DNA of 64,000 nucleotides from Streptomyces durocortorensis (GTDB taxonomy: Bacteria; Actinomycetota; Actinomycetes; Streptomycetales; Streptomycetaceae): NCBI RefSeq assembly GCF_031760065.1, contig NZ_CP134500.1:5704001-5768000 (forward strand), in the 5' to 3' direction. Below the pieces are notes generated by a model that made no database searches, was not told the origin of the DNA, and saw only the letters and a program-made list of their open reading frames with translations. The position numbers were made by a program, and so were the translations under genes. Positions 6,070 through 50,960 of this stretch are shown piece after piece. Each line of letters begins with the position of its first letter. Positions within the stretch are counted from its first letter, which is position 1.

Positions 6070-6906
6070 ATGGCGAACTACACCGCCGCTGACGTCAAGA
6101 AGCTCCGCGAGCTCACCGGCGCCGGCATGATGGACTGCAAGAAGGCGCTCGACGAGGCCGACGGCAACGTCGACAAGGCCGTCGAGGCGCTCCGTATCAA
6201 GGGCCAGAAGGGCGTCGCCAAGCGCGAGGGCCGCTCTGCCGAGAACGGTGCCGTCGTCTCCCTCATCTCCGAGGACCAGACGTCCGGCGTTCTCCTGGAG
6301 CTGAAGTGCGAGACGGACTTCGTCGCCAAGGGTGAGAAGTTCCAGGCCGTCGCCAACACCCTCGCCGCCCACGTCGCCGCGACCTCCCCGGCCGACCTCC
6401 AGGCGCTGCTCGCCTCCGAGATCGAGGCCGGCAAGACCGTCCAGGCGTACGTCGACGAGGCCAACGCCAACCTTGGCGAGAAGATCGTCCTGGACCGCTT
6501 CGCGCAGTTCACCGGCGAGTACGTCTCCGTGTACATGCACCGCACCATGCCCGACCTGCCCCCGCAGATCGGTGTTCTGGTCGAGCTGGACAAGGCCGAC
6601 GCCGAGCTGGCCAAGGGCATCGCGCAGCACATCGCCGCCTTCGCCCCGAAGTACCTGTCCCGCGAGGACGTCCCGGCCGAGGTCGTCGAGGCCGAGCGCC
6701 GCGTCGCCGAGGAGACCACCCGCGCCGAGGGCAAGCCCGAGGCCGCGCTCCCGAAGATCGTCGAGGGTCGCGTCAACGGTTTCTTCAAGGAGGCCACCCT
6801 CCTCGGCCAGCCGTACGCGCTGGACGCCAAGAAGTCCGTCCAGAAGGTCCTGGACGAGGCCGGAGTCACCCTGAAGCGCTTCTCGCGCATCAAGGTCGGC
6901 ATCTGA
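6070..6906 (+). CDS. tsf: Elongation factor Ts
   Basis: EF-Ts exchanges GDP for GTP on EF-Tu. The 278-residue product opens with the UBA-like domain MANYTAADVKKLRELTGAGM (residues 1-40), and the catalytic TDFV motif of the core follows (LKCETDFVAKGEKF, about residues 78-90). Two core subdomains and a C-terminal helix complete it, a normal length for actinobacteria. It lies 99 bases after rpsB, behind a strong hairpin, with only a weak GAGAGA ribosome binding site. Confidence 0.99.
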   Translation: MANYTAADVKKLRELTGAGMMDCKKALDEADGNVDKAVEALRIKGQKGVAKREGRSAENGAVVSLISEDQTSGVLLELKCETDFVAKGEKFQAVANTLAAHVAATSPADLQALLASEIEAGKTVQAYVDEANANLGEKIVLDRFAQFTGEYVSVYMHRTMPDLPPQIGVLVELDKADAELAKGIAQHIAAFAPKYLSREDVPAEVVEAERRVAEETTRAEGKPEAALPKIVEGRVNGFFKEATLLGQPYALDAKKSVQKVLDEAGVTLKRFSRIKVGI

Positions 6907-8524: not shown

Positions 8525-9609
8525 TGAACGACTCTTCCTGGGGCGCCCCGCAAGGAGCGGGTTACTGGGGCACGCCCGAGATGAGGGCTGCCCCGGCGGG
8601 TCCTGCCCACGATGTGCATGACGCCCAGCAGACTCGGCCCATGCCCAACGTGCCGGACGTTCCCGACGCAGGTAGAGACGCAGCCGACCGCGCCGACCGG
8701 GACAGGGATGCCGCTCACGTCAGCGGCCCCCTGTTCCGTGACGAGATGCCGCAGGAGCCCATGTCCACCCCGCTGCCGCCCCCGCCGCAGAAGAAGCGCG
8801 CGGGGCGTGATCTGCGCGCCGCCATAGGAGTGGGCGTGGGTCTCGGTGCCGTCATCGTCGCCTCGCTGTTCATCGTGAAGGCCGTCTTCATCGGCGTGAT
8901 AGCGGTCGCCGTCGTCGTCGGCCTCTGGGAGCTCACCTCCCGTCTCCAGGAGCGCAAAGGCATCAAGGCGCCCCTGGTTCCGCTGGCCGTCGGCGGCGCC
9001 GCGATGGTCATCGCCGGTTATGTCCGGGGCCCTGAGGGGGCCTGGGTCGCCATGGCCCTCACCGCCCTCGCGGTGCTGGTCTGGCGGATGACCGAACCGC
9101 CGGAGGGATATCTCAAGGACGTCACCGCCGGGGTCTTCGCGGCGTTCTACGTCCCCTTCCTGGCCACCTTCGTCGCCCTGCTGCTGACGGCGGACGACGG
9201 GCCGTGGCGGGTCCTCACCTTCCTCGTCCTCACCGTGGTCAGCGACACCGGGGCGTACGCCGTCGGCTGGCGCTTCGGCAAGCACAAGCTCGCCCCCCGC
9301 ATCAGCCCCGGCAAGACCCGCGAGGGCCTGCTCGGCGCGGTCGCCTTCGCGATGGCCGCCGGTGCGCTGTGCATGGAGTTCCTGATCGACGGCGGCGCCT
9401 GGTGGCAGGGGCTGCTGCTCGGCCTCGCGGTCGCGGCCAGCGCCACCCTCGGTGACCTGGGCGAATCCATGATCAAGCGGGACCTCGGCATCAAGGACAT
9501 GGGTACCCTGCTCCCCGGCCACGGCGGCATCATGGACCGGCTGGACTCGCTGCTGCCCACCGCGCCGGTGGTGTGGCTGCTGATGGTGCTGTTCGTCGGC
9601 TCCGGCTGA
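8524..9609 (+). CDS. cdsA: Phosphatidate cytidylyltransferase
   Basis: CdsA makes CDP-diacylglycerol from CTP and phosphatidic acid, the branch-point precursor of phosphatidylinositol, cardiolipin and phosphatidylethanolamine. The 361-residue protein has a proline-rich cytoplasmic N-terminus of about 90 residues, then about eight membrane helices. Near the C-terminus is the family signature, visible as KRDLGIKDMGTLLPGHGGIM and DRLDS. Its ATG overlaps the frr stop, so it is coupled to the translation operon. The long polar N-terminal extension is common in actinobacteria. Product CDP-DAG also feeds the phosphatidylinositol on which pimB (18,225) acts. Confidence 0.97.
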   Translation: MNDSSWGAPQGAGYWGTPEMRAAPAGPAHDVHDAQQTRPMPNVPDVPDAGRDAADRADRDRDAAHVSGPLFRDEMPQEPMSTPLPPPPQKKRAGRDLRAAIGVGVGLGAVIVASLFIVKAVFIGVIAVAVVVGLWELTSRLQERKGIKAPLVPLAVGGAAMVIAGYVRGPEGAWVAMALTALAVLVWRMTEPPEGYLKDVTAGVFAAFYVPFLATFVALLLTADDGPWRVLTFLVLTVVSDTGAYAVGWRFGKHKLAPRISPGKTREGLLGAVAFAMAAGALCMEFLIDGGAWWQGLLLGLAVAASATLGDLGESMIKRDLGIKDMGTLLPGHGGIMDRLDSLLPTAPVVWLLMVLFVGSG

Positions 9610-9710
9610 GCCACCGCACACCCCGTCCCACCTGCAATTCTTTACGGTGAGGGCTCGTTGTCCACAGGGCGGCGGGCCCTCACCCGTCTGTCTGCGACAC
9701 TGGATGAACC

Positions 9711-10817
9711 ATGCCTAAGCCCGGAGAACTCACTTTCGTCGCGCCCCGCGGAGCCAAGAAGCCCCCGCGGCACCTCGCCGACCTCACGCCCGCCGAGCGC
9801 AAGGAAGCGGTCGCCGAGACCGGCGAGAAGCCGTTCCGCGCCCAGCAGCTCTCGCAGCACTACTTCGCGCGGTATGCGCACGACCCGGCCCAGTGGACCA
9901 ACATTCCCGCCGGGTCCCGGGAGAAGCTCGCCGAGGCGCTGTTCCCCGAGCTGATGTCCGTGGTCCGCCACATCAGCTGCGACGACGACACCACCCGCAA
10001 GACCCTGTGGAAGCTGCACGACGGCACGCTCGTCGAGTCCGTCCTGATGCGCTACCCGGAGCGCGTCACGATGTGCATCTCCTCGCAGGCGGGCTGCGGG
10101 ATGAACTGCCCCTTCTGCGCCACCGGGCAGGCCGGGCTCGACCGCAATCTGTCCACCGCCGAGATCGTGCACCAGATCGTCGACGGCATGCGCGCCCTGC
10201 GCGACGGCGAGGTGCCGGGCGGCCCCGCCCGGCTGTCCAACATCGTCTTCATGGGCATGGGCGAGCCGCTCGCCAACTACAAGCGGGTCGTCGGTGCCAT
10301 CCGCCGGCTCACCGACCCCGAGCCGGACGGCCTCGGCCTCTCGCAGCGCGGGATCACCGTCTCCACCGTGGGCCTCGTCCCGGCGATGCTGCGCTTCGCC
10401 GACGAGGGCTTCAAGTGCCGCCTGGCCGTCTCGCTGCACGCCCCGGACGACGAGCTGCGCGACACCCTGGTCCCCGTCAACACCCGGTGGAAGGTCCGCG
10501 AGGTCCTGGACGCCGCGTGGGAGTACGCGGAGAAGTCGGGCCGCCGCATCTCCATCGAGTACGCCCTGATCCGGGACATCAACGACCAGGCCTGGCGCGG
10601 TGACCTGCTCGGCAGGCTCCTCAAGGGCAAGCGGGTCCACGTCAACCTCATCCCGCTCAACCCCACGCCCGGCTCCAAGTGGACCGCCTCGCGCCCCGAG
10701 GACGAGAAGGCGTTCGTCGAGGCCATCGCGGCCCACGGTGTGCCCGTCACCGTCCGGGACACCCGGGGCCAGGAGATCGACGGGGCCTGCGGGCAGCTGG
10801 CGGCCTCCGAGCGCTGA
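9711..10817 (+). CDS. rlmN: Dual-specificity 23S rRNA/tRNA m2A methyltransferase RlmN
   Basis: RlmN is a radical-SAM enzyme that methylates C2 of A2503 in 23S rRNA and of A37 in some tRNAs. The 4Fe-4S motif CxxxCxxC is seen as CGMNCPFC near residue 130. The S-adenosylmethionine-binding GEPL is within [14 protein letters not shown], and the two catalytic cysteines are plausibly the Cys in [13 protein letters not shown]... region and Cys in IDGACGQL at the C-terminus. 368 residues is normal length. It lies 101 bases downstream of cdsA, with TCTTTACGG in the gap, so it may have its own promoter. Confidence 0.97.
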
Positions 10818-48514: not shown

Positions 48515-49960
48515 ATGACTTCCACCCACGCCTTCTGGCTGGCCGGCCGCCAGGCCACCGGTGCGGACAGCTTCGACGTCACCAACCCGTACGACGGACG
48601 TCTCGTCGGCACCGTCAGCGTGCCGACCGACGCCCAGGTCGAGGAGGCCGTCGCCGCCGCGCACGCCGTGCGCGACGAGTTCGCCGCGACCCCGGCGCAC
48701 GTACGGGCCGCGGCCCTCGACCACGTCGTACGGCGGCTGACGGAGCGTACCGAGGAGATCGCCCAGCTGATCTCGGCGGAGAACGGCAAGCCGATCAAGT
48801 GGGCCCGCGGCGAGGTCGGCCGGGCCGTGTCCGTGTTCCGGTTCGCGGCCGAGGAGGCCCGCCGGTTCAACGGCGGCGAGGCCCAGCGGCTCGACACCGA
48901 CCTCGGCGGCACCGGCCGGCTCGGGCTGGTCCGGCGCTTCCCGCGCGGGGCCGTCCTCGGCATCGCGCCCTTCAACTTCCCGCTGAACCTCAGCGCCCAC
49001 AAGGTCGCCCCGGCCATCGCCGTCGGCGCTCCGATCATCCTCAAGCCCGCCCCGGCCACCCCGATCTCCGCCCTGATCCTCGGTGAGCTGCTGGCCGAGA
49101 CGGACCTCCCGGCCGGTTCCTGGTCCGTCCTGACGGTCCCGAACGACAAGATGCCCGCCCTGGTCCAGGACGAGCGGCTGCCGGTCATCTCCTTCACCGG
49201 CTCCGGCCCCGTCGGCTACGCGATCATGGAGTCGGTGCCCCGCAAGCACTGCACCCTGGAGCTCGGCGGCAACGGCGCGGCGGTCGTCCTCGGCGACTAC
49301 GCCTCCGACGAGGACCTCGACTGGGCCGCGACCCGGATCGCCACCTTCTCCAACTACCAGGGCGGCCAGTCCTGCATCTCGGTGCAGCGCGTCATCGCCG
49401 ACGCCTCGGTCTACGACCGGCTCGTCCCGAAGATCGTCGCCGCCGTCGAGGCGCTGGTGACCGGCGACCCGGCCGACGCCACCACCGACGTGGGCCCGCT
49501 CGTCAGCGAGGACGCGGCCAAGCGCGTCGAGTCCTGGGTCGACGAGGCCGTCCAGGGCGGCGCCGAGCTGCTCACCGGCGGCAAGCGCGACGGGGCCACC
49601 TACGCCCCGACCGTGCTCGCCGGTCTCCCCGACGACGTGACGCTCTCCTGCGAAGAGGTCTTCGGGCCGGTCATGTCCCTCCAGAAGGTCGACGGCGAGG
49701 GCGAGGCGTTCGCCGCCGTCAACTCCTCCAAGTACGGCCTCCAGGCCGGGGTCTTCACCCACGACCTCCAGACCGCCTTCCGCGCCCACCGCGCCCTGGA
49801 GGTCGGCGGCGTGATCATCGGCGACGTCCCCTCGTACCGCGCCGACCAGATGCCGTACGGCGGCGCCAAGCAGTCCGGCGTCGGCCGCGAGGGCGTGCGC
49901 TACGCCATGGACGACTACACCTACGAGCGCGTCCTGGTCCTCACCGGCCTCGCCCTGTAA
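48515..49960 (+). CDS. NAD(P)-dependent aldehyde dehydrogenase
   Basis: A 481-residue ALDH. Catalytic Glu is in TLELGGNGAAVV and Cys in GGQSCISVQR; the NAD-binding FTGSGPVGYAIM is clear, and APFNFPLN holds the oxyanion Asn. It is of the phosphonoformaldehyde/lactaldehyde/glyceraldehyde-3-phosphate type, not close to the two polyamine-type enzymes above. It follows the PucR-type regulator gene by 210 bases, so it may be its target; succinic semialdehyde or another short aldehyde is plausible. Start MTSTHAFWLAGRQ at 48,515; only a weak ribosome binding site. Confidence 0.92.
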   Translation: MTSTHAFWLAGRQATGADSFDVTNPYDGRLVGTVSVPTDAQVEEAVAAAHAVRDEFAATPAHVRAAALDHVVRRLTERTEEIAQLISAENGKPIKWARGEVGRAVSVFRFAAEEARRFNGGEAQRLDTDLGGTGRLGLVRRFPRGAVLGIAPFNFPLNLSAHKVAPAIAVGAPIILKPAPATPISALILGELLAETDLPAGSWSVLTVPNDKMPALVQDERLPVISFTGSGPVGYAIMESVPRKHCTLELGGNGAAVVLGDYASDEDLDWAATRIATFSNYQGGQSCISVQRVIADASVYDRLVPKIVAAVEALVTGDPADATTDVGPLVSEDAAKRVESWVDEAVQGGAELLTGGKRDGATYAPTVLAGLPDDVTLSCEEVFGPVMSLQKVDGEGEAFAAVNSSKYGLQAGVFTHDLQTAFRAHRALEVGGVIIGDVPSYRADQMPYGGAKQSGVGREGVRYAMDDYTYERVLVLTGLAL

Positions 49961-50065: not shown

Positions 50066-50581
50066 TCAGGACTTGCGGATGGTCATGGTGTTGTCGTTGG
50101 AGGGATATCCGTACTTGTACTGCTGGCAGTCGACGGACTTGGACCGGCTGTGCACGGTCCACCCGGCCGGCACCTCGAACAGGCCGCAGATGGTCTTGGT
50201 GGTGCCCTTCGGGAGACCGGCGAGATTCACCAGCCCGACCCGGTTGTGGTAATCGCTGGTGCCGCGGCTCCGGTTGCAGTCGGAGACCGACGAGTACCTG
50301 GTGATGTGGAACCCGGACGGGATCGGGCTGTAGGTGCACGCCGACACGGTTCCGCCGGCGGCCACGTCGCTGGTGTCCGTGATCCGCTTCGTGTTGTACA
50401 TGCCCCCGCCGGTCGAGCCGCACCGGGAACTGTCCCAGTACTTCACCTCGACCCACCCCACGGGCGTGCTCGTCCAGCCGCACACGTCCTTCGGTGTCGC
50501 GGCGCCGGCCGTGCCCGAGGCCATCAGCCCACCCAGCAGCGATGCGGTCAGCGCAACTCCCACACGTCTGTACCAGTTCAT
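50066..50581 (-). CDS. Secreted protein of three cysteine-loop repeats, function unknown
   Basis: A 171-residue protein. The signal peptide spans residues 1-28 (WYRRVGVALTASLLGGL, cleavage near TAGA-A). The mature part contains only six cysteines, in three pairs 20 residues apart (C34/C54, C82/C102, C132/C152). Each pair follows exactly C-x5-P-x-G-[W/F]-x10-C. After each loop is a Tyr/Asn-containing stretch (GGMYNTKRI, SDYHNRVGL, GYPSNDNTM). The repeats are 48-50 residues apart. It is likely a small extracellular protein with three disulfide-closed loops; I recognise no family. Start: ATG at 50,581 (GGGGG 7 bases upstream) is preferred to one 6 bases earlier. Confidence 0.75.
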   Translation of the reverse strand: MNWYRRVGVALTASLLGGLMASGTAGAATPKDVCGWTSTPVGWVEVKYWDSSRCGSTGGGMYNTKRITDTSDVAAGGTVSACTYSPIPSGFHITRYSSVSDCNRSRGTSDYHNRVGLVNLAGLPKGTTKTICGLFEVPAGWTVHSRSKSVDCQQYKYGYPSNDNTMTIRKS

Positions 50582-50960
50582 CCTCATACCCCCAGGTATC
50601 GGACCTCGTGCCCTTCGTGGCTGCGCAGGAGTCTGTCACTTCTGACATGCACCTGGCCAGGAGTGCTGCTTATCGGCTGGTCCGGCGCGATCGTCAACGG
50701 GGTGCCCTTGCTCCAGGTGGTGACGATGCCTTGCCCGACCCGGGTGCGCGTACGAAGTGGTCGATGCCCGGATCAGCGGGCCCCGAGTCCCCGGACCGCG
50801 CCCCGACGCTCCTGGCGCCCGGCCCGCTCGGCTGAAGGAGGCCGGTGTCCCGCCTCGTGCGCGGGGGCTGGTGCGGGTGCCGATCAGCGGGTACACGGGT
50901 TACATACGGACCAGAAGCAGCCCAGTAGCAGCAGCGACGAGCGGCGAGGTGAGGTCCCTC
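50582..50960. other. 379-base spacer, no gene seen
   Basis: This space lies between the divergent secreted-protein and acyl-CoA dehydrogenase genes and must hold both promoters. Frames are open on both strands (for example 50,636-50,896 on the minus strand), but none has a ribosome binding site or third-position bias. A short AT-leaning patch (GGTTACATACGG) near 50,898 is the most promoter-like sequence. GAGGTGAGG just before 50,961 is the dehydrogenase ribosome binding site. Confidence 0.6.

Follow-up and report, generated by a model that had tools for sequence, protein, structure and literature searches.

A predicted secreted cysteine-loop protein of Streptomyces durocortorensis as a member of an unnamed repeat family

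The window analysed here, a stretch of 64,000 nucleotides of the Streptomyces durocortorensis genome, carries on the minus strand a gene (50066..50581) for a three-unit, putatively secreted cysteine-loop protein of 171 amino acids; the coding sequence was delimited from the open reading frame listing, the letters, the homologue starts and the GC content by codon position. Judged by sequence comparison, the protein is one member of a cysteine-loop repeat family which is widespread and unnamed. We put at roughly 0.6 the probability that it combines a modular architecture of three beta units with a non-enzymatic role outside the cell. Most likely it would be an extracellular binding or matrix protein, and for a binding role alone the chances seem to us a little short of even.

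The protein begins with a putative Sec signal peptide (about residues 1–28; 50498..50581, minus strand), which was read from the sequence by its charged start, hydrophobic stretch and AGAA. This part ends in ...GTAGAA and has a pLDDT below 60 in the AF2 model. Three repeat units follow on the same strand: unit 1 with its linker (residues 32–79, 50345..50488; predicted strands 31–34, 43–49 and 64–69), unit 2 with its linker (residues 80–129, 50195..50344; predicted strands 78–82, 91–97 and 114–119) and unit 3 (residues 130–171, 50069..50194; predicted strands 128–132, 141–147 and 165–170). The cysteine-pair motif places loop 1 at C34–C54 (50420..50482), loop 2 at C82–C102 (50276..50338) and loop 3 at C132–C152 (50126..50188), all on the minus strand. 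The six cysteines (34/54, 82/102 and 132/152) thus form three pairs, each 20 apart with the pattern C-x5-P-x-G-[WF]-x10-C, as the initial annotation had described; when the mature sequence was shuffled 200,000 times, no shuffle had three such motifs, 14 had at least one, and 121 had three successive pairs of cysteines with equal (any) spacing. The Asn and the hydrophobic position after the loop align with the relatives in all three units, each of which agrees with the unit definition C-x5-P-x-G-aromatic-x10/11-C then N-x3-[ILV]. The single-unit profile A6 matches the three units with E-values of 2.5e-15, 8.9e-14 and 2.1e-12, which are not independent as A6 was built including these same units.

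The open reading frame contains two in-frame ATGs, at 50587 (the start given by the ORF tool) and 50581, and ends with the stop codon at 50066–50068 (minus strand, from the listing). The second ATG is the better start because a GGGGG stretch lies seven bases ahead of it and six of the eight homologues from the protein search have an equivalent start; of the other two, P0003 is annotated 12 residues longer and P0008 begins inside unit 1. GC by codon position is 0.49/0.58/0.92; the value at the third position is as expected for a Streptomyces gene, and the value at the first is unusually low for one. The convergent neighbour is an aldehyde dehydrogenase gene ending at 49960, beyond which lies a PucR-type regulator, and the divergent neighbour is an acyl-CoA dehydrogenase gene. 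An inverted repeat, TGTCA-N4-TGACA (50634–50647), is found about 50 bases upstream of the start codon; it is kept in strain SM11, has one change in WZ.A104 and is possibly an operator or part of the promoter. No second copy of the gene was found in its own genome by protein search, which returned only the protein itself and three matches at E 0.08–0.11; profile A6 run on the same genome returned the three units of the gene and then matches at E 0.005 and weaker. Comparison with the SM11 orthologue gave a pairwise dN of 0.072 and dS of 0.115, values which suggest moderate constraint only.

The protein search returned eight homologues, among them P0001 with 99% identity; the profile search returned ten, the new ones being P0009 (56%) and P0010, a distant two-unit protein. 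The named sources of the close homologues are Streptomyces and Actinacidiphila. All eight complete three-unit homologues (P0001–P0007 and P0009) keep the six cysteines in pairs 20 apart, so no loss of a pair was seen among these orthologues. The annotated start of P0008 (Actinacidiphila alni; L036, 4977–5423) falls within unit 1; upstream of it the reading frame in the DNA still encodes unit 1, without a signal peptide. The flanking genes are common to the two nearest strains and absent at three more distant loci. With profile A1 the three-unit gene was found in its own genome only among 392 genomes of the genus, and the survey of the taxonomic family found it in its own and two other genomes of 297. 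Because of this rarity in the genomes surveyed, the three-unit gene appears dispensable for the genus.

The relatives were gathered by word and profile searches and not by the cysteine pattern. The repeat unit is about 40 residues long with the cysteine loop at its core, and its profile was run over 73 distinct proteins (P0001–P0066, the window protein and six from the loci). This gave 168 unit matches; both cysteines are present in all 165 that span both positions, which upholds the earlier claim of a conserved geometry, and the remaining three (P0008, P0066, P0065) are partial alignments that fail to cover both cysteine columns. Some bias enters these counts, since a profile favours cysteines and close relatives are numerous among the proteins. 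Fifty-four proteins have two units, 15 have three, one has four, two have five and one (P0063, which has lost its second unit) has a single unit. Across 65 proteins (P0001–P0065), the distance from cysteine 1 to the next cysteine after the motif is +20 in 110 units and +21 in 28, and one unit has none within range. The Pro column is conserved in 166/166 letters, apart from Ser in unit 1 of P0065, which aligns only in part; Gly is found in 164/167 letters (Asp in loop 2 of P0009 is an exception), Asn in 155/161, and W, F or Y at the aromatic column in 164 of the 168 unit rows. The best conserved positions (C, P, G, aromatic, V, N and I) look structural from the alignment, and no conserved acid–base set was found among the 168 unit matches of the 73 proteins.

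The geometry is not peculiar to this protein: it belongs to a repeat family with two to six units per protein, whose members look like exported proteins and come from several phyla. At E 0.001, profile A1 matches 25 of 392 genus genomes, the own genome included, and the loci fetched beyond that genome encode two-unit proteins, mostly of about 121 amino acids, and one five-unit protein (L031). Profile A6 at E 0.01 matches 49 of the 392; the best E-value is below 1e-4 in 28 of these (own included) and between 6e-4 and 0.01 in 21, which are probably chance matches. In the taxonomic family of the host, 36 of 297 genomes match at E 1e-5, and in the phylum the own genome is the one match among 396 at E 0.001, a weak negative since the listed genomes show 11 candidates scored each. 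The protein database adds members from Kitasatospora, Pyxidicoccus and Pyrinomonadaceae, the latter two of which we take to belong to Myxococcota and Acidobacteriota, respectively. The Pyxidicoccus member is 73% identical to a Streptomyces one, yet has its own lipoprotein-like start; a recent transfer is possible from this sequence likeness. A Haliscomenobacter plasmid (Bacteroidota) encodes the five-unit relative P0066, which a search with the window protein detects at E 2e-3 and one with the L031 protein at 1e-8. P0066 has extra cysteines: units 2–5 have cysteines at +17 and +21 besides +20, and in unit 1 they lie at +17, +22 and +23, so that the pairing may differ from that of other members.

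The starts are signal-peptide-like in the Streptomyces proteins, and lipobox-like in P0048 and P0064; the secretion proposed in the initial annotation is plausible from such a start, read from the sequence of the window protein. The two-unit secreted proteins of Streptomyces and Kitasatospora are mostly 120–145 amino acids long, compared with 171 amino acids and three units here. They share with the window protein the signal-peptide-like start, the repeat unit and the cysteine spacing, at an identity of 24–34% (alignment A4). Their source names are ‘hypothetical protein’ or ‘secreted protein’, with one ‘Ig-like domain-containing protein’. In five proteins of the Pyrinomonadaceae type (P0050, P0054, P0059, P0061 and P0062), a conserved stretch of approximately LMTK.EYDRAGLAKLS..EREAL is found ahead of two units.

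Since unit counts of 2, 3, 4, 5 and 6 occur across the family, the units appear self-contained. Units were compared by mean BLOSUM62 scores between eight three-unit and 41 two-unit proteins, with a shuffled-unit control score of −0.8 (sd 8.1). Unit 1 of the three-unit proteins is closer to unit 1 of the two-unit proteins (78.9) than to their unit 2 (37.1), and unit 3 is closer to their unit 2 (43.5) than to their unit 1 (29.8); unit 2 stands most apart, with 23.6 for their unit 2 and 17.1 for their unit 1. From these scores, we infer that the three-unit protein resembles a two-unit protein that has gained a unit in the middle, or that the reverse took place by loss. Judged by sequence, the other three-unit proteins (L094, L095, L099, L100 and P0064) seem to be separate cases. 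Tandem genes are found in the genus g249, which is probably Kitasatospora because the sequence of its member L107 resembles P0034 (a Streptomyces rubellomurinus record) and the protein database has many Kitasatospora members: four adjacent frames with 5, 6, 3 and 5 units (L115, 4427–8120), three frames with 5, 3 and 5 units (L116, 4465–6998) and three two-unit genes (L118, 4911–6495). In g249, 16 of 37 genomes match at E 1e-5 and the single genome G914 has 32 unit matches, some of them in tandem gene clusters; outside g249, none of 24 genomes matched in the same survey at E 1e-5. We propose that unit number (2–6) and gene number have changed often in this family. In a genome of the host genus (G016, L043), a two-unit and a four-unit gene lie about 3 kb apart (6214–6684 and 9603–10202), and three of the four units of the latter protein are nearly identical.

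The AF2 model of the window protein (34 sequences) has a mean pLDDT of 87.1, a pTM of 0.76 and three strands per unit, with 129 of its 171 residues at a pLDDT of 90 or more; the model of the two-unit relative P0015 (43 sequences) has a mean pLDDT of 83.9, a pTM of 0.69 and the same strand pattern. In the model, strand 1 ends at cysteine 1, the aromatic residue opens strand 2 and a short helix holds cysteine 2. Foldseek gave no significant match for either model against solved and viral structures, and profiles A4 and A5 had no match at E 10 to PDB chains by sequence.

As the initial annotation had supposed, no named family was found: in Pfam and NCBIfam, neither the window protein nor its relatives have any match reaching the cut-off. 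The likeness to the MbtH-like proteins (PF03621) is in a short P-x-G-W stretch, where weak profile matches are found for P0009, P0065 and proteins of L031, L043 and L115; these are short and all below the cut-off of 27 bits (the best relative scores 17.2 bits), and the window protein has no match to PF03621 at E 10. They possibly reflect a similar hairpin, or chance. MbtH proteins are not known to be exported. The phage family phrog_19424 (86 positions) matches the five-unit L031 protein in five stretches with 80.6 bits, and more weakly the proteins of L043 (9606–10202) and L117 (4861–5646), with 49.9 and 37.3 bits, respectively; it has no match to the window protein at E 1, and its genus search gave one weak match (E 0.008) in 121 genomes.

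On our preferred reading, the gene would encode a modular, non-enzymatic protein built from three small beta units and exported by Sec. Each unit is predicted to run from strand 1 with cysteine 1 through the P-x-G-aromatic turn to strand 2 and the short helix with cysteine 2, and then through a loop to strand 3 after the conserved Asn. One disulfide per unit, joining strand 1 to the short helix, is the simplest reading because both cysteines are co-conserved in every spanning match. The units may act as a rigid scaffold whose variable parts are displayed outside the cell, where these would most likely bind something in the cell envelope, the matrix or the surroundings. That the conserved residues seem structural argues against an enzyme and against a binding site shared at the PxG-aromatic turn. 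Patchy occurrence and variation in unit number are in keeping with an accessory extracellular protein; neither the neighbour genes at the compared loci nor the literature point to a function or ligand.

The carbohydrate binding suggested in the initial annotation would make the protein a lectin with one site per unit at the PxG[W/F] loop. Lectins commonly have multivalent repeats with exposed aromatics, and tandem units with variable parts are present here; however, P, G and the aromatic hardly vary in the units of all collected relatives while most other positions do, which argues for a fold-defining turn or core role rather than a ligand site, and there is no lectin family at the Pfam cut-off and no significant match to a solved lectin by sequence or fold. 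We therefore consider a lectin unlikely; for the spore-surface role, also suggested, nothing was found in support. A secreted weapon or inhibitor against competitors (an antimicrobial, a protease inhibitor or an anti-predator protein) would suit a small cysteine-rich protein with a signal peptide, and relatives which are patchy in the genus and expanded in tandem in some genomes, but no conserved neighbour suggests an immunity gene or target (from crude gene calls) and no inhibitor or toxin family scores above the cut-off in Pfam or NCBIfam, so we hold this to be rather improbable.

A membrane-binding, MABP-like beta-prism, with three sheets round a pseudo-threefold axis, comes to mind because the best two PDB rows of the two-unit model in Foldseek are 3tow (MABP domain of MVB12B) and 8b6v (Mpf2Ba1). 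Passages of PMC10344926 relate the C-terminal beta-prism of Mpf2Ba1 to 3tow, and passages of PMC6753088 describe the MABP domain as binding membranes and that of MPEG1 as having less than 5% sequence similarity to other MABP domains. The MABP domain is all-beta like our models, but the likeness is weak and insignificant (E 1.8 and 2.0, TM-scores by query 0.24–0.25), and there is no PDB chain by sequence at E 10. The three-unit model should match better, yet neither structure is among its best 50 of 61 rows; moreover, the unit number is not fixed at three, and a single threefold prism does not suit members with 2, 4, 5 and 6 units. The likeness of the model is a lead and not a result, and we regard a prism of this kind as very improbable.

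This analysis places what was an orphan ‘hypothetical protein’ in a repeat family which, though unnamed, can be recognised; its unit is testable, and the unit alignment would already allow a family profile. The interest centres on the family and its expansion and on the predicted fold, for which the PDB gave no significant match; naturally occurring members have from two to six units. More tentatively, with odds clearly against it at present, this may be an undescribed, small disulfide-closed beta-repeat fold exported by at least four phyla in strings of two to six units, and in some actinomycetes multiplied into tandem clusters as a fast-changing scaffold for extracellular recognition. Rigid cysteine-stabilised units with variable parts would be of interest for extracellular display in actinomycetes and as candidate binding scaffolds.
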